From: an uncultured Roseateles sp.
GTDB lineage: Bacteria > Pseudomonadota > Gammaproteobacteria > Burkholderiales > Burkholderiaceae_C
Reading direction: 5' to 3'
NCBI RefSeq assembly: GCF_913777145.1
Contig: NZ_CAJYPS010000019.1
Location: 124,001 to 188,000, forward strand
DNA length: 64,000 bases
Position numbers and translations under genes: made by a program. The notes under the pieces were generated by a model. That model was not told the origin of the DNA, searched no databases, and saw only the letters and a list, made by a program, of their open reading frames with translations. Below are positions 1 to 15,616 of this stretch, one piece after another (position 1 is the first letter of the stretch; the number at the start of each line of letters is the position of its first letter).

Positions 1-416
1 ACCGCGTGCCCGACGGCACACGCGTCACCTTCAAAGTCAATCCGCTGAACCTCAAGACCATCAAGGTGGTCGTTCCCGGTACGGCCGAGTTCATCTCGGT
101 GGATTGCGTCAATGAGCTTAGCTGGCCGCGCACGCTTTCCTACCACGTGGCGGTTCGCCAGACAGCCCGGCGGATGGGCCTGAGCACCAAGGAGCTACGG
201 GACCTGGCGCTCGCCGAGGCGGCCCTGAAGCGCACTATCGAGGCGGCAGCGATGAAATCAAAGAAGGCCCTGCGGCGCGCCCAGGCCGAACTCTATAGGG
301 AGGCCCAGGCCGCAGAAGACGCCGAGGCCGCCAACGACCTTGCGGATGTCGTGCCGCCCAGCGGCGCGGACGTCGACTTGGAGGACCGCCTCGGCAAGGT
401 CTTCGCCGACGCATGA
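1..416 (+). CDS. tniA: TniA/TnsB-like transposase, C-terminal fragment (5' end outside window)
   Basis: The reading frame is already open at the left edge (first full codon at base 3), so this is the tail of a longer gene. The visible 138 residues look like the beta-barrel and tail that follow the DDE core in the Mu/TnsB/TniA integrase family: a barrel-like stretch with a basic strand then 'VVVPGTAEFISVDC', followed by a long charged helical tail rich in Ala, Glu and Lys. In this family the tail contacts the AAA regulator. The assignment rests largely on the next two genes, which are TniB-like and TniQ-like. The stop overlaps the next start as ATGA. The catalytic DDE residues are not in the window, so whether the transposase is intact cannot be judged. 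Confidence 0.75.
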   Translation, partial: RVPDGTRVTFKVNPLNLKTIKVVVPGTAEFISVDCVNELSWPRTLSYHVAVRQTARRMGLSTKELRDLALAEAALKRTIEAAAMKSKKALRRAQAELYREAQAAEDAEAANDLADVVPPSGADVDLEDRLGKVFADA

Positions 417-1393
417 ACATGGAATCCACCAAAACCGAACTCGACCTTCCTGCGGGGCCGCTGCGCGACGCCTTTGTGGGGCTCAACCGGCTGTACGTCG
501 AGACACGTCGCCACGGTGCGGCGTTGAGCGAAATGAAGCGCCTGTTCATGTCGTCGCCGCATGCGTCGAGTCACCAGGGATTCGCGCTGCTGGGCGACAC
601 CGGCGCCGGCAAGACCACGACCGTGCGCCAGCTCGAAGCCTGGCTGCGCAAGCAACTGGGCCTGGCGCCGGATGCGCCGACGCCGCTGCCCATCGTGACG
701 ATGCATGCGGACATGACCCCGAGGGGCCTTGTCGAAGCGCTACTCGACATCTACGGTGACCCCATGCCGACCACGGGCAAGCGCTCCGACTTGGACAAGC
801 GCCTGCGCAAGTATCTCCAGCGAGCCAACCATATCTTCGGCATCGTTCTCGACGAAGGGCAGCACGGCTTCATCGGCAAGACGGGGCGCCAACGGCTTCT
901 GATGACGGCTACGCTCAAGGACGTCATCTCGGAATGCCCTCGACCGGTGTTGGCGTTGGGTCCGCTGACGCTGGAGGAGCATCTCGACGGTGACCCCGCT
1001 CTGCACCAGCGCTTCGCAGAACGTGCCTTCCTCGAGGACTTGCGTCTGGACCTCGACGACGACTTGCACGACGTGCGCGCGGTACTGCGCGGCATGGATG
1101 CCCAGCTGCCGAGCGCGCCCGGTTGCAAGCTCGACTCTGCCGACATGCTCAAGCGCCTGTATGTGGCCGGCCAGGCGTCATTCGGTCGCAAGGTTCGCAT
1201 AGTGCGGTTGGCGTGCTCGTACGGCGCGATTGACGGCGCATCGGTCGTCCAGGTCCAGCACTACAGCCGGGCATGGCGCGCCGTGGCCCCGCGCAAGTTG
1301 CGCCACGACAAGCACGACCCCTTCTTGCTCGACGGTGCCACGGTCACCAAGCTGGCCGCGCAGCTGGGCACAAAGCTCCAGGGCACCGACTGA
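413..1393 (+). CDS. tniB: TniB/TnsC-family AAA ATPase, transposition regulator
   Basis: 326-residue ATPase. Walker A is GDTGAGKT at residues 61-68 and Walker B is IFGIVLDEGQH around 141-151, with the DE pair at 147-148. An N-terminal 'FVGLNRLYVETRRH' segment resembles the TniB N-terminus. In Tn7 and Tn5053 relatives this protein forms ATP-dependent filaments on DNA and links the target selector (TniQ/TnsD) to the transposase. The length is close to TniB proteins (about 300 aa) and shorter than Tn7 TnsC. The start at 413 overlaps the tniA stop by ATGA, so the two are probably translationally coupled. TniB-type is a better fit than IstB or a generic AAA because of the neighbours. Confidence 0.9.
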   Translation: MNMESTKTELDLPAGPLRDAFVGLNRLYVETRRHGAALSEMKRLFMSSPHASSHQGFALLGDTGAGKTTTVRQLEAWLRKQLGLAPDAPTPLPIVTMHADMTPRGLVEALLDIYGDPMPTTGKRSDLDKRLRKYLQRANHIFGIVLDEGQHGFIGKTGRQRLLMTATLKDVISECPRPVLALGPLTLEEHLDGDPALHQRFAERAFLEDLRLDLDDDLHDVRAVLRGMDAQLPSAPGCKLDSADMLKRLYVAGQASFGRKVRIVRLACSYGAIDGASVVQVQHYSRAWRAVAPRKLRHDKHDPFLLDGATVTKLAAQLGTKLQGTD

Positions 1394-1403
1394 CGGACTC
1401 GAT

Positions 1404-3137
1404 ATGCCGCCTCCAACCGACATGGATTCCACCCCCGATGGGCAGCACGGAGAACCGTTAGCCATCGGCCCTGGTAACACCGATTCGCCTGCCTTTGTCT
1501 TCACCCGCTCGCTCCACGAGGGAGAGAGCCTCGCCGGCTTCGTGCAGTGGCTATGCGCAGAGAACGTCGTGCCCCGCCAAGCCCACCTGTTCAAGCTGCT
1601 GGCACGCTTCGGATGCACTCCGCCGCAGTCGATTTGGGAGCTGGCGCAGGACGACGGCGCCTTGAGTGCCCTGGAAAGGCTTGCCAGGCAACCGGTAGGC
1701 GGACTCGCACACCTGCGCCTGCGCGTGCTGCGCGCGGCGGTCGATGACGGCGAAGAGGACCGCATCGTGCAACACGGCTACGAGTGGCCTCAGGGGAGTC
1801 TGGCCAAGCTGATGCAGCCCGTCTGCACCCATTGCTTGCGCGAAGACGGCTTCGTCCGCGCCGAGTGGGAGTTCGTGCAGGCACCGGTGTGCACACGCCA
1901 TAGCCTGCAGCTGATTGAGAACTGTGGGGCCTGTGGCGCGCCGATTCGGTCCGACCGACCGACGGTCGCGCACTGCGCGTCGTGCTCAGCGTCCCTGACC
2001 GACCTTGTGGCAACGCCCGCCAACGCACTGGTCGTGACGGCGGCACACGCCATCCAGGCGCCGCGCATGTTGGCCTTTGGCAGCGAGTCCTACACCGTGC
2101 CAGTCGAACCGCAAGACCTGTCAGGGCTGCTGCGCCTTCTGCTTCTGCCTCGCTTCGGCGAGGACGTGAGCTACGGGCTGCACGGCGACCTGGAAGCCAT
2201 TCCGCTGGCGCGACGCATCGAGGCACTGCACCGACTTGGCGCCTGCATCGTGGGCAAGCGCCTTGACGCCGAGCGCGTGCGCCAGTTCGCGCAGCAGCGC
2301 TGGCCGTATGCGTCGCGGCTCGTCGCTGACGAACAGTGGCGCCTGCTATTGGAGGCCGGGCGCATCGCGGGACTTGCACCCGATATCACCCGCGTGCTCG
2401 GCTGGAACAATGATGCCGCGCCCTACCCTATGGCGATAGAAGTCTTTGACAAGCGCCCGCCGCGCATCCTGAGTCTTGCGCAGCTGGCCGCCCACCTCCG
2501 CCTGGAGCCGGAGAACCTGGCCGCGCTCCTCAACTGGGAGCCCATGGCCACCAACAAGCTCGCCCACCTCGGCTTCGACATGGATGAGGTGCTGCGGCTT
2601 GAACGAGTGCTGCGTTCGATGCTGACCGTCGAGCAGGTGGACGAGCTGCTTGGCTGGCCCGGCGCAACGGCGGAGCTCGTCAAGATGCGTCTGCTCGAGG
2701 GGCTCCCGGGACCGGAGGGCACATGGCGCATCTACGCACGTAGCCTCAGCCAGTTGCTCGCGCGAGTGCATGAGCGCGTCGGCACTGTGGATTCCGATGC
2801 CGGTGATTGGGTATCGCTGCAGAGCTCGCGGGAGCTGGGCTTCGACGCGCGCCAGTTCGCATGGGCCATCGCGCAGGTCATCGGGGGCTCATTGGTCGCG
2901 CGTAGCTGGGAGCCCCCCTTCGGCCTGACGTCGCTGTTCGTGTGCCGCCGTCGCCTGCGTGAGCTGGCCAGTTGGCCCCAGTCGGAGGCGCCTGCCCAGA
3001 CGGCCGACGGACTTCGGTCCGACACGACCTGTACGGCAGGTGCGACGAGCGCTGGCAAGGAGCAGGAAACGACCCCGGTGCCAAGAGTACGGGGCGGGTC
3101 ATCGCGAAATGGAAGAAGTGCCGGTTGCCCACCATGA
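1404..3137 (+). CDS. tniQ: TniQ/TnsD-family target-site selection protein
   Basis: 577 residues from the ATG at 1404, ten bases after the tniB stop; an upstream in-frame ATG at 1230 lies inside tniB and is unlikely. The N-terminus carries the TniQ signature 'FTRSLHEGESLAGFVQWLCAE' (about 33-53). Zinc-finger pairs follow: C141/C144, C163/H166, C174/C177 and C191/C194, the usual TniQ arrangement. The long C-terminal half (about 200-560) is TnsD-like and probably helix-turn-helix rich. In this family TniQ/TnsD reads the attachment site and recruits the AAA ATPase. The length points to a TnsD-like sequence-specific selector rather than the short TniQ of CRISPR-associated elements. The stop overlaps the kptA start as ATGA, which is unusual. 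Confidence 0.88.
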   Translation: MPPPTDMDSTPDGQHGEPLAIGPGNTDSPAFVFTRSLHEGESLAGFVQWLCAENVVPRQAHLFKLLARFGCTPPQSIWELAQDDGALSALERLARQPVGGLAHLRLRVLRAAVDDGEEDRIVQHGYEWPQGSLAKLMQPVCTHCLREDGFVRAEWEFVQAPVCTRHSLQLIENCGACGAPIRSDRPTVAHCASCSASLTDLVATPANALVVTAAHAIQAPRMLAFGSESYTVPVEPQDLSGLLRLLLLPRFGEDVSYGLHGDLEAIPLARRIEALHRLGACIVGKRLDAERVRQFAQQRWPYASRLVADEQWRLLLEAGRIAGLAPDITRVLGWNNDAAPYPMAIEVFDKRPPRILSLAQLAAHLRLEPENLAALLNWEPMATNKLAHLGFDMDEVLRLERVLRSMLTVEQVDELLGWPGATAELVKMRLLEGLPGPEGTWRIYARSLSQLLARVHERVGTVDSDAGDWVSLQSSRELGFDARQFAWAIAQVIGGSLVARSWEPPFGLTSLFVCRRRLRELASWPQSEAPAQTADGLRSDTTCTAGATSAGKEQETTPVPRVRGGSSRNGRSAGCPP

Positions 3138-3748
3138 GCAATAGCGATTCACGCACATCGTCCTCGAGCCCTGAGCTTCTGGTCACGGTCAGCAAGCTGC
3201 TTTCGAAGGTCTTGCGCCATGAACCTGGGCTGGTCGGAGTGGTCCTGGACGCGCAGGGCTGGACCTCCATTGACGAGCTGCTCAAGGGCGTCGCCAAGGC
3301 TGCACGCGCCCCTGGTGCCGCCAAGCGGCTTCGCACCCTGCCGGCGCTGGACCGCAGCCTGTTGCTCGCCGTGGTCGAGGCGAACACCAAGCAGAGATTC
3401 GCGATTTCTGGCGATGGCAAGCGCATCCGTGCGGTTCAGGGGCACTCCGTCCCAGTCACGCTGAACCACCCGACGCTGGCTCCGCCAGCCGTGCTCTTCC
3501 ATGGCACGGCTGCCGACAACCTGAAGTCCATCCTGCGCGATGGCCTCAATCCAGGCGGGCGGCACGCCGTGCATCTTTCGGTCGACCCTCAGACGGCACG
3601 AGCGGTCGGTGCGCGTCATGGGCGGCCGCTCGTCCTGGTGGTCGCCGCTGGGCTCATGCACGCCGAAGGCTATTCCTTTTCTCGCGCCGACAACGGCGTC
3701 TGGCTCGTCGACCGAGTTCCGCCGAAGTATTTGGAGGTCGACACCTGA
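3134..3748 (+). CDS. kptA: RNA 2'-phosphotransferase, KptA/Tpt1 family, inside the transposon operon
   Basis: 204 residues from the ATG at 3134, which overlaps the tniQ stop (ATGA). Family motifs are clear: 'LRHEP' with R28-H29, 'LDAQGWTSIDELL' (38-50), 'KQRF' (86-89), 'KRIRAVQGHS' (96-105), 'LFHGTA' (121-126) and 'RHAVHLS' (143-149). R28, H29, R88 and R143 are candidates for the Arg-His-Arg-Arg active site; the exact alignment is my inference. Family members move an internal RNA 2'-phosphate to NAD+, releasing nicotinamide, and some bacterial ones ADP-ribosylate 5'-phosphorylated RNA or DNA ends in vitro. Bacteria lack the fungal tRNA splicing that makes the usual substrate, so the native role is unknown. 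Coupling to tniQ suggests it is a core passenger of the transposon. Confidence 0.9.
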   Translation: MSNSDSRTSSSSPELLVTVSKLLSKVLRHEPGLVGVVLDAQGWTSIDELLKGVAKAARAPGAAKRLRTLPALDRSLLLAVVEANTKQRFAISGDGKRIRAVQGHSVPVTLNHPTLAPPAVLFHGTAADNLKSILRDGLNPGGRHAVHLSVDPQTARAVGARHGRPLVLVVAAGLMHAEGYSFSRADNGVWLVDRVPPKYLEVDT

Positions 3749-3988
3749 AGGGGCCTCATCGTCGGGGCCGAGATGCCTTGGTCTTCACCTGCTGCGCTCG
3801 CAGTGCTGCTCAGCCGAACATGCAAGTGGCTCGACGCTACCAGGCATTACCAGGCCGTTGCGTAATTACTGAGCGCTCGCGTAATCCTGCGGCACGCCGG
3901 CTGCAGACCCATCTGTCGGCAGCGTCTTCTCGCGCATGCACGGAGCGGCAAGAGGAGACTTGTCAGAGAATAACGAATTCGTCAAAAA

Positions 3989-4018
3989 AAGCCGCCAGCT
4001 CACGAAGGCGAGCGGCTT
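3989..4018 (-). terminator. Hairpin with a T-run on the minus strand, just upstream of the ExoX-C-like gene
   Basis: AAGCCGC (3989-3995) pairs with GCGGCTT (4012-4018), and seven A residues sit at 3984-3990. Read on the minus strand this is a stem followed by a T-run, the form of an intrinsic terminator, yet no minus-strand gene enters it. Read on the plus strand it is a leader hairpin about ten bases before the Shine-Dalgarno of the next gene and could affect its translation. Confidence 0.35.
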
Positions 4019-4037
4019 ACCGTCGGGAGGAGCGGCC

Positions 4038-4484
4038 ATGCAGGTGACCTTCGGCAAGTACGTGGGCAAGAGCAGCCAGTTTTTGGTGCTCAAGGAGCCA
4101 GGCTACATTCGTTGGGCGCTGGGGCAGTCGGCCAACGGGCCGATGGCCAAGCTGCAGGCGGAGGCCAAGCGCCACATCCACGACTTCGACGCGAAGCCTT
4201 TCAAGGCGGTATGCGCGGAGTGCAAGCAGCCGGCTGTCCGGGCGACGGCGTATCAGAACAACACTGACCTCGTCGCATGGTGCGCGAACTGCGACCCGTA
4301 CTCCCTGGGCGCAAATAGCGGCAAGCTGACCGTTCTTACGACTTGGAGTCAAGCACTTCGGCACGTGGAATTCACGTGCGCCAACCGTAAGGGCGACCAA
4401 GCGGCCATCATCAAAGAGTTAGGCCGGCTCAAGGGTGCTCCAGCCCGTCTCGGCGACGTCCAAGCCGTGTCATTCCTGCCTTGA
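4038..4484 (+). CDS. Small protein: ExoX-like C-terminal domain plus zinc ribbon, unknown role
   Basis: 148 residues. The start at 4038 is chosen because GGGAGGAG lies seven bases upstream and the domain begins immediately; an in-frame ATG at 3936 would add a non-conserved leader. Residues 3-30, 'VTFGKYVGKSSQ' then 'PGYIRWALGQ', match the small domain found at the C-terminus of exodeoxyribonuclease X-type nucleases (pattern FGKYxGK...PxYxxW). C59-x2-C62 and C82-x2-C85 form a likely zinc ribbon. The DEDD nuclease domain is absent. The gene follows kptA on the same strand after a 289-base gap and is probably transposon cargo; a nucleic-acid-binding role is inference only. Confidence 0.6.
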   Translation: MQVTFGKYVGKSSQFLVLKEPGYIRWALGQSANGPMAKLQAEAKRHIHDFDAKPFKAVCAECKQPAVRATAYQNNTDLVAWCANCDPYSLGANSGKLTVLTTWSQALRHVEFTCANRKGDQAAIIKELGRLKGAPARLGDVQAVSFLP

Positions 4485-5039
4485 CGGGCTCAACTCCGCC
4501 CACATCGGCGCGCCGCCAGTTCAGCTCACGGGCGACTCGGTCGACGCGGGCTGAATATCAGTGGCGCCCTGAACAAAGCTCTGACCCGGCTGCTTGCGCT
4601 CGCTGAGAACGCGGCAGCACGCGAAGCTTCAGGGAGGCCAGCGCTCTGCGGCTTTCCGGCCCCTCGTCCGTGGAGCCACTATCCAAGTTTGAAGCGGTCC
4701 CAGCCAACAATTGCGGCATGACGGCTGGGGCCTCGGTGGACGATGTCGGCTGTCGAAGATTTCCCAATGAAATCAACAACTTGGCGCGTTGCAAAAATTA
4801 GATTGCGAACATACCACTTATCATCTGGCAAGACTTGAACTTGAGGTGGCGCGCCACGCTATGTCGTTGATTTACTTGTCCTCTCGTTGGCACCCTTACC
4901 TTGTCACCACAGTTGCAAACCACACGCGGCTACCCCCTTTGCCAGCTGGTCGGGCTTGCAAGCCCTGCAGCACACTTCATCTGCCCCGCATATGAACACG
5001 GCGCCGGCTCGCGGCCCGCTCCCGCACGGCGTGAAGAAC
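4485..5039 (+). other. Gene-free stretch, AT-richer in part; likely transposon right boundary
   Basis: No convincing ORF is seen in these 555 bases. From about 4740 to 4920 the sequence is clearly more AT-rich than its surroundings. The octamer GTTGCAAA occurs at about 4788 and 4913, and ACTTG-containing words recur at about 4768, 4832 and 4873. Tn7-like ends carry several short transposase-binding repeats, so this may be the right end of the element, with host DNA starting at or before gor. I could not define a terminal inverted repeat or target duplication because the left end is not in the window. Confidence 0.35.
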
Positions 5040-14356: not shown

Positions 14357-15616
14357 TCAGGCGCGGCGGCGCACACGCCGCTCCACGGTCGCGCGGGCAT
14401 CGGCCAGCGCACGGTCTATGGGTTTGCGCTGCAGCAGCACCAGGTCCAGTTCGTTGCGCACCACCTCGTCGGCGACCGCGTCGTAGCGGTCCAGTGCCAG
14501 CGCAGGCACGCGCCGCGCCATGTCGCGCCACTGCAGCCGCGCCGGCTGGCCGCCCAGAAAAGGAATGGGCTGGTCGAGGAAGCCGTCGTCCTGCGCGCTC
14601 AGCAGCACCGGGAAGGCGTCCAGCGAGCGGAAGGCGGCCAGCTGCTGCTCGCGGTCCAGCGCCAACAGTCCCAGCAGCTCCCAGGCCAGCGCCTTGTGCT
14701 GCGAATGCACCGGGATCGCATAGAAGGAGCCGCCCCACGCGGCGGCCACGCCCTCGGGCAGCGGCGCCGAGCGCCAGCGACCCGCGGTGGCCGGCGCGAT
14801 CCAGTGCTTGAGATGCCCCCCCAGCCAGGAGCCCATCATCTGCGCGGCGATCAGGTCGCGGCGAAAGCCCTCGGCCCACTCGTTGGTCCAGGCGCGCACG
14901 CCGGCGTCCATGCCCGCATCGCGCGCCTGCTGAGCCAGCTCGAAAGCGGCGCGAAAGCGATCGCCCTGCACCAGGCAGCGGCCACCGCCATCGAAGAACA
15001 CGCCCTCCCCGTCCGCCAGCCCGGCGCGGATGCGGATGTCCTTGAGATCCTGGGCATGGGCCAGCAGGCAGGCGCCGGTGCGCGCCCGCAACTGCTTGCC
15101 CGCCGCGATGAAGCCGCGCCAGCTCTGCGTGAGGTCGCGCTCGACCAGCCCGGCGCGCTGCAGCAGGTCCTCGCGGTAGAACAAGGCCCCCGGGCCCACG
15201 TCCACCGGCAGCGCCTTGAGTTCGCCGCGGCGATTGACGCCGGCACGCCAGGCAAAGCGCGCGATCTGCGCCTGATGCACCGCGCCGCTGAAGGGCGGGC
15301 GGGACAGGTCCTCCAGGCCGGCGGAGTCCAGGAACTTGCCCATGAAATCCATATCAAGCGCGATCAGGTCCGGCAGCGCGGCACCGGCGGCCAGAGCCGT
15401 CGTCATTGCCGTGTGGTGATCCTTGTGGGCCAGCGACACCACGTTGACCTCGACCTCCGGGTGCCGCCGCGCAAACGCCGGCAGCGCCAGCTTGAGCGCG
15501 CGGTCCAGATCGGGATAGGTGGCCACGGTGAGCCGGGTGGCGGCCGCCCGCGTGCGGCTGGTGGCGGGTGCGCAGCACAGCAGCGTCAGGGCATCTCGGC
15601 GCCTCAGCGATCGCAT
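14357..15616 (-). CDS. Sugar ABC transporter substrate-binding protein (solute-binding family 1)
   Basis: 419 residues, first gene of the minus-strand beta-glucan cluster, with an AGGAC site before the ATG at 15616. The N-terminus 'MRSLRRRDALTLLCCAPA' is a short basic then hydrophobic export signal; the RRRDAL run could suit the Tat route, and two Cys residues at 14-15 might be lipidated, but neither motif is canonical. The body has the family-1 pattern of a periplasmic binding protein: 'RLTVATYPD', 'FARRHPEVEVNVV', 'GPGALFYREDLLQRAGL'. It should bind the glucan-derived oligosaccharide and deliver it to the two permeases. Confidence 0.88.
   Translation of the reverse strand: MRSLRRRDALTLLCCAPATSRTRAAATRLTVATYPDLDRALKLALPAFARRHPEVEVNVVSLAHKDHHTAMTTALAAGAALPDLIALDMDFMGKFLDSAGLEDLSRPPFSGAVHQAQIARFAWRAGVNRRGELKALPVDVGPGALFYREDLLQRAGLVERDLTQSWRGFIAAGKQLRARTGACLLAHAQDLKDIRIRAGLADGEGVFFDGGGRCLVQGDRFRAAFELAQQARDAGMDAGVRAWTNEWAEGFRRDLIAAQMMGSWLGGHLKHWIAPATAGRWRSAPLPEGVAAAWGGSFYAIPVHSQHKALAWELLGLLALDREQQLAAFRSLDAFPVLLSAQDDGFLDQPIPFLGGQPARLQWRDMARRVPALALDRYDAVADEVVRNELDLVLLQRKPIDRALADARATVERRVRRRA

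Follow-up and report, generated by a model that had tools for sequence, protein, structure and literature searches.

A KptA-family RNA 2'-phosphotransferase gene beside a damaged Tn7-like operon in a Roseateles defense island

Here, we analyzed kptA, a predicted RNA 2'-phosphotransferase gene that directly follows the target selector gene tniQ of a Tn7-like operon in an uncultured Roseateles sp. (RefSeq assembly GCF_913777145.1; 4.39 Mb in 35 contigs). The analysis was centered on a 64,000-nucleotide stretch of contig NZ_CAJYPS010000019.1 (C19 bases 124001–188000, hereafter “the window”), together with 28 kb of upstream sequence. On balance, we consider it reasonably probable that kptA is mobile RNA-repair cargo left beside a broken Tn7-like operon in a defense island, and not a part of the transposition machinery. 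We favor this reading because the KptA domain is intact and belongs to a clade of its own, because of the settings in which its relatives are found, and because tnsB is in pieces, the end of the tniQ frame carries no coding signal, and the tniQ–kptA junction was seen only in the window.

Gene order and the tniQ–kptA junction

The genes in question all lie on the plus strand. A 5'-truncated piece corresponding to the 3' part of tnsB/tniA (1..416; its open frame already begins 562 bases upstream of window base 1, at L002:15439) is followed by tniB (413..1393), encoding a TnsC-type ATPase of 326 amino acids (PF05621 E 5.5e-14, AAA_22 E 3e-12, coding score 0.27), by a tniQ open frame of 577 amino acids (1404..3137; PF06527 E 8.3e-10 over residues 36–170, above the cut-off), and by kptA (3134..3748), encoding an RNA 2'-phosphotransferase of 204 amino acids (PF01885 E 7e-39; best PDB match 7kw8, E 9e-45). 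PF06527 and PF01885 each gave a single match in this genome, i.e., tniQ and kptA, respectively. ATGA overlaps join tniA to tniB (413–416) and tniQ to kptA (3134–3137), while 10 bases (1394–1403) separate tniB from tniQ. The layout proposed in an initial annotation of this DNA, i.e., tniB–tniQ–kptA with ATGA overlaps and a 10-base gap, is thus borne out by coordinates and Pfam matches. For tniA, the 3' piece overlapping tniB stands, but an intact gene does not, since the TnsB reading is spread over several frames upstream.

The same annotation had taken kptA to be translationally coupled to the target selector. The tniQ frame has gene-like positional G+C and codon scores up to ~2960, after which they fall, and its cumulative coding score is maximal at window position 3008. 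No other forward frame takes over between this drop and kptA, so that by frame and codon scores the stretch at 3009..3133 has no coding signal in any of the three forward frames. The last 56 tniQ codons scored −0.26 per codon, compared with +0.11 to +0.41 for the ends of ten further genes from this locus. None of 35 gene tails elsewhere in the window (lowest −0.16 with the same model) and none of 2862 in-frame segments from five locus genes (lowest −0.01) scored as low, although these controls are not independent, as the coding models were partly trained on the same genes and the segments overlap, and the 35 tails come from genes chosen because they scored well as a whole. Judging by composition only, the real coding part of tniQ probably ends between ~2960 and 3010 and its C-terminus has probably been lost, with 3009..3133 likely being a junction or the leader of kptA, and not the C-terminus of TniQ.

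Under these circumstances, the overlap itself is weak evidence of coupling, because kptA opens with ATGAGC, whose TGA terminates every open frame that reaches it in this phase. It would also be expected if a shortened tniQ ran on into the kptA leader. The 3009..3133 stretch displayed no significant similarity to the leaders of other kptA loci, and no promoter- or terminator-like site was detected across 2800–3950, although the lack of a promoter-like site carries little weight in so G+C-rich a genome. Overall, the apparent coupling of tniQ and kptA is probably accidental: given a tniQ tail without coding signal and a junction that is not repeated elsewhere (see below), the initial claim is not supported. 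More generally, a four-base ATGA overlap does not prove coupling when coding signal has faded from the frame upstream.

The Tn7-like element and its defense island

Upstream of the window, the gene order is RT_UG29 (minus strand), the Wadjet III genes jetA, jetB, jetC, and jetD, orf461, a TnsA-like gene (PF08722 E 1.7e-6, 28.9 bits vs a cut-off of 26.5), and the pieces of tnsB. A complete TnsB with its D, D, and E residues was found in no single frame. The first piece (frame 1, L002 13924–14652) is N-terminal-like by eye and has no Pfam match. The second (frame 2, L002 14642–15442) includes the first Asp, an in-frame stop (14999–15001), and then D2 and E, all motifs being read by eye, and its coding signal is weak from ~15000 to 15150. 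The third (frame 1, L002 15439–16416) contains a second D2–E region and the C-terminal part, but has neither an N-terminal part nor the first catalytic Asp. Compared to the 711-amino acid TnsB of genome G049 (L029:7451–9586), the frame-2 part corresponds to residues 262–502 and the last piece to residues 393–672 (30% identity for the last). The two D2–E copies are only 28% identical over 104 columns and thus do not represent a recent duplication; we infer that two distinct tnsB genes were fused. The joints between the pieces are ATG-stop overlaps (ATGGGCGCTAA, ATGA), and the pieces, although they look like a damaged gene, may instead make up an unusual transposase encoded by split genes. The breaks may also stem from an assembly error.

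The Tn7-like element thus looks damaged. It shares with other Tn7-like transposons (Tn7, Tn5053, and the CRISPR-associated transposon (CAST) kin) a TnsA-like gene, TnsB pieces, TniB, and TniQ in that order, along with an adjoining Wadjet system, while it differs from them in its pieced tnsB with a doubled D2–E, in a candidate left end without a mate, and in a TniB and TniQ remote from the relatives found. The candidate left end (C19:101647–101795, i.e., L048:5647–5795) holds TGTTGACA, two exact 22-base repeats (TGCCAACGTGCCTGGCTATGTC), and a shorter third one. No convincing inverted mate of these repeats was found in window positions 3740–5000, and a 16-of-20 inverted match between the left and right regions was taken as chance. 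No close relative of TniQ was detected in genome_contigs or plasmids. Relatives of TniB were found at 26–27% identity in two cyanobacterial plasmids and, besides the window protein itself, in 8 of the 150 family genomes scanned (best E 1e-13). The gene flanking the element on the left was not within 1.5 kb of the one on the right in any of the 11 relatives' loci compared (gene in 24 of 40 genomes), and because the flanking genes are apart in relatives, there is no empty site for comparison.

The surroundings of the element are a defense island. RT_UG29 (L048:5925–13769, C19:101925–109769, minus strand) encodes a DnaG-primase/reverse-transcriptase fusion of 2614 amino acids (PADLOC, 2121 bits), and adjoins Wadjet III genes that are all of one type (JetA3 781 bits, JetC3 2111 bits, JetD3 365 bits, and a weak JetB3 with E 3.5e-4). 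According to passages of PMC8649781, Wadjet and sirtuin systems occur among Tn7-like cargo; the word phosphotransferase is absent from the main text of that paper, and among the open-license PMC papers listed in our searches, none dealt with KptA as cargo of Tn7-like elements.

A Burkholderiales clade of KptA and its neighborhoods

The window KptA has a complete PTS_2-RNA domain (PF01885, 134 bits vs a cut-off of 26, profile positions 4–176 of 177), while its scores against four NCBIfam equivalog models are all below the cut-offs of those models (best 217.8 vs 239). Residues R28, H29, R88, and R143 are invariant across an alignment of ten KptA sequences. In human TRPT1, R40, H41, R86, and R150, i.e., an Arg-His-Arg-Arg tetrad, have been shown to matter, as described in parts of PMC6582358. 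The four window residues would form the same catalytic tetrad, a one-to-one equivalence read by eye from alignments, and KptA is probably an active NAD+-dependent RNA 2'-phosphotransferase. Whole domain, Arg-His-Arg-Arg residues, and length (~200 amino acids) are those of the KptA/Tpt1 family (PF01885; PDB 7kw8), from which the window protein and its closest relatives differ by an extra segment. Many bacteria carry KptA although they are not known to have RNA junctions with a 2'-phosphate.

Among the ten aligned sequences, this extra segment, around KRLRTLP, was present only in the window KptA and in two copies from genome G255. In a tree of 98 KptA sequences, the 12 segment carriers form one branch (support 100/88), all 12 having 13 residues in the segment, where each of the 86 others has at most 2. 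This tree leaves out 11 rows, i.e., the very long row L034, seven viral rows, and three duplicates. In a 109-row tree, from which the duplicates L030, L031, and L045 had been left out beforehand, the clade was recovered (support 100/96) apart from L034, which split it at the root. Two further sequences outside the trees, from G151 and G188, lack the segment. Within the clade, the window copy branches first and Ramlibacter L054 next, followed by ten rows from Burkholderia and Paraburkholderia. The trees place the window KptA in a well-supported Burkholderiales clade. As a separate observation, the row L034 (G192:C53:42002–42415), with its very long branch, is a divergent KptA-like match within a 968-codon open frame, perhaps a fusion.

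We next consider how often kptA and tniQ co-occur. An order-level sample of 399 genomes included at least 82 with TniQ (at most nine candidates being scored per genome) and 19 with KptA, the latter at 21 kptA places. In this sample, tniQ and kptA were side by side in the window only, and at none of the 20 other kptA places. Likewise, tniQ adjoined kptA at none of the related KptA loci from a scan of genome_contigs, for which 80 of 200 loci were kept, 51 with full 10-kb flanks (8 clade, 43 other). The adjacency therefore did not recur in either set. Of the two signs of a chance insertion named in the initial annotation, the first was seen, as related TniQ elements do exist without an adjoining kptA. 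The second was not, as the window kptA falls into a clade found near Tn7-like operons and not among unrelated chromosomal copies.

This nearness was observed in both data sets. In the order-level sample, TniQ was detected within 20 kb on the same contig at 3 of 4 clade places (the window, G255:C7 at ~9 kb, and G255:C2 at ~15.5 kb) vs 0 of 17 non-clade places (p about 0.003 by hand, with the window itself counted and two places in one genome). The contig of the fourth clade place, G255:C8, had no TniQ. The trees include fifteen of the 17 non-clade places, all outside the clade (G237 being represented by its twin L061, and G192 by the long row L034), and the other two are the segment-less G151 and G188. 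With a rebuilt TniQ profile applied to the genome_contigs loci, TniQ was found within at most 10 kb at 2 of 10 clade loci (L051 at ~7 kb and L052 at ~9 kb) vs 0 of 70 others (p about 0.014 by hand). The TniQs of L059 lie beyond the examined stretch, and a candidate for L058 was not counted, as it sits on G547:C93 (15,576 bases) and the kptA contig has 15,755. Overall, TniQ was not found in the examined stretch at 8 of the 12 clade loci. Operon proteins from L030 (identical to L052), L031/L032 (identical to L059), and L051 had no blastp match to the window Tns/Tni proteins at E 0.01, i.e., by protein similarity, the window operon has no more than family-level kinship with the Tn7-like operons that lie near clade kptAs.

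Clade kptAs also share other neighbors. A family of ~230 amino acids, here termed p228, was found at 10 of the 12 clade loci, i.e., at nine of the ten loci L050–L059 (not L054, and weakly in L058) and at L038, vs 0 of 70 other KptA loci. Where found, p228 lies upstream of kptA on the same strand, at a distance of up to 2.9 kb (4 kb at L038), and is doubled at L050, L055, L057, and L038. It had no match in the window, in L002, or in the rest of the Roseateles genome, where 7 of 26 candidates were scored. Across the order-level sample, p228 was detected in 9 of 399 genomes, with strong matches only in G255 and one middling match in G299 (E 1e-36), a genome in which no KptA was found. Against Pfam, the only repeated hint was PF09722 (Xre_MbcA_ParS_C), seen for 6 of 12 members (best E 0.088). 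For an AlphaFold2 model of p228 (predicted local distance difference test, pLDDT, 79), the best Foldseek match was 2kfs, Rv2175c (probability 1.00, template modeling score 0.55 to the target, E 0.09), and the fourth was 6fkg_C, MbcA (probability 0.98, 57 columns, E 1.1). No Foldseek match reached E 0.001, and a PDB profile search gave no match up to E 1. We regard the likeness to Rv2175c/MbcA regulators suggested by the model as weak leads.

In addition, HAD_SAK_2 genes adjoin kptA at L056 and L058, and SIR2 genes at L051, L052, and L056, with broken SIR2 pieces at L059. The KptA–sirtuin pair of Paraburkholderia has kptA followed by SIR2 on the same strand (L030:13065–14552, identical to L052; L051; L056). 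At L054, an integrase alone was recognized among the eight open reading frames scanned around kptA. Parts of PMC9503650 tie KptA, and a separate clade of sirtuins with Swiss-army-knife (SAK) HAD phosphatases, to the repair of RNA cut by metal-independent ribonucleases, in phage and bacterial RNA-repair neighborhoods that also include 2H and cREC proteins. Some clade kptAs resemble these neighborhoods in having SIR2 or HAD_SAK_2 alongside, while the window kptA differs in having neither. A role in countering RNA damage, as initially suggested, is consistent with the HAD and sirtuin neighbors of some relatives.

Cargo, conflict, or chance

If kptA is RNA-repair cargo, its position could be accounted for by rearrangement and damage of the Tn7-like element in the defense island, which would have brought kptA next to the 3' end of tniQ. 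KptA would then remove 2'-phosphates from RNA ends or junctions, letting the RNA be mended, and the damage might come from metal-independent ribonucleases, i.e., toxins, or tRNA cleavage triggered by phages or defense systems. Expression of the gene would start in its own leader or result from read-through, and its product would take no part in transposition. Because clade members occur close to mobile elements, to RNA-end phosphatase and sirtuin genes, and to an antitoxin-like partner, a role of KptA in conflict becomes testable.

Several observations weigh against this cargo reading. The low coding signal at the end of tniQ may instead mark a real but unusual C-terminal tail, and operon-style ATGA overlaps are present at both tniA/tniB and tniQ/kptA. 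The breaks in tnsB could come from assembly error. No right end was found, and kptA may lie outside the element. The HAD, sirtuin, and p228 neighbors seen in relatives are all missing around the window copy. Finally, Tn7-like operons occur more often in the vicinity of clade kptAs than of the remaining kptAs, so that there may be a genuine association with such elements.

Among the alternatives, chance fares best, i.e., a stray kptA that arrived, by whatever route, beside a dead element and has no link to Tn7-like elements, although we consider it unlikely. It would be in line with the many settings in which kptA is found, including plasmids and the vicinity of insertion sequence elements, and with the L054 copy, near which only an integrase was recognized; the repeated nearness of the clade to Tn7-like operons in both data sets argues against it.

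A more ambitious and doubtful proposal, which we place behind chance, is that the Burkholderiales clade is the enzyme of a mobile conflict module, mending or capping RNA ends under the control of its own DNA-binding partner of the Rv2175c/MbcA type. Several unrelated Tn7-like elements would carry this module, and the window would hold an early-branching, partnerless copy. The partner would act as Xre/MbcA does in controlling RES. In the RES-Xre and MbcT-MbcA pairs, the toxin has an ADP-ribosyltransferase fold. The clade loci resemble such pairs in combining an enzyme of that fold with a small upstream protein whose C-terminal part is Xre/MbcA/ParS_C-like, and differ from them in that KptA replaces the RES toxin, the likeness is weak, and the window lacks the partner.

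Less probable again is a role for clade KptA as the effector of a toxin–antitoxin-like or defense module held in check by p228, the window copy having lost, or never had, its partner. The restriction of p228 to the clade among KptA loci, its upstream position on the same strand, and the Rv2175c, MbcA, and PF09722 hints would all fit such a module. However, every fold or family E-value is weak, the distance between p228 and kptA can reach kilobases, four loci have two p228 copies, the L058 match is weak, and the two deepest members (the window and L054) have no p228; moreover, KptA retains its repair residues, and some relatives sit among RNA-repair enzymes.

Least probable of all is that kptA genuinely belongs to the operon of a family of Tn7-like elements, being translated with tniQ and capping or repairing nucleic acid ends, or shielding the element, during transposition: the ATGA overlap on the same strand, the clustering of clade kptA places within 20 kb of TniQ, and the ADP-ribosylation of 5'-phosphate RNA and DNA ends by KptA/TRPT1 (described in parts of PMC6582358 and PMC11833690) speak for it, but no second tniQ–kptA junction was found, the tniQ tail has no coding signal, the three relatives with TniQ in reach have kptA ~7 to 15.5 kb away beside Tns/Tni proteins unrelated to those of the window, and most clade loci had no TniQ in the stretch examined. 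The suggested role in transposition, e.g., end capping, is accordingly not supported: capping is chemically possible, but nothing in the data points to it.

Downstream of kptA, orf182 (3936..4484, plus strand) matches no Pfam family at E 0.001, with just DUF6510 (E 0.014) and DUF2458 (E 0.05) up to E 0.1, and no known family could be assigned to it. Against NCBIfam, it matched PRK07983.1 alone (E 4e-4, 19.5 bits, far below the cut-off of 202). By composition, its open frame of 182 amino acids is coding (score 0.14).

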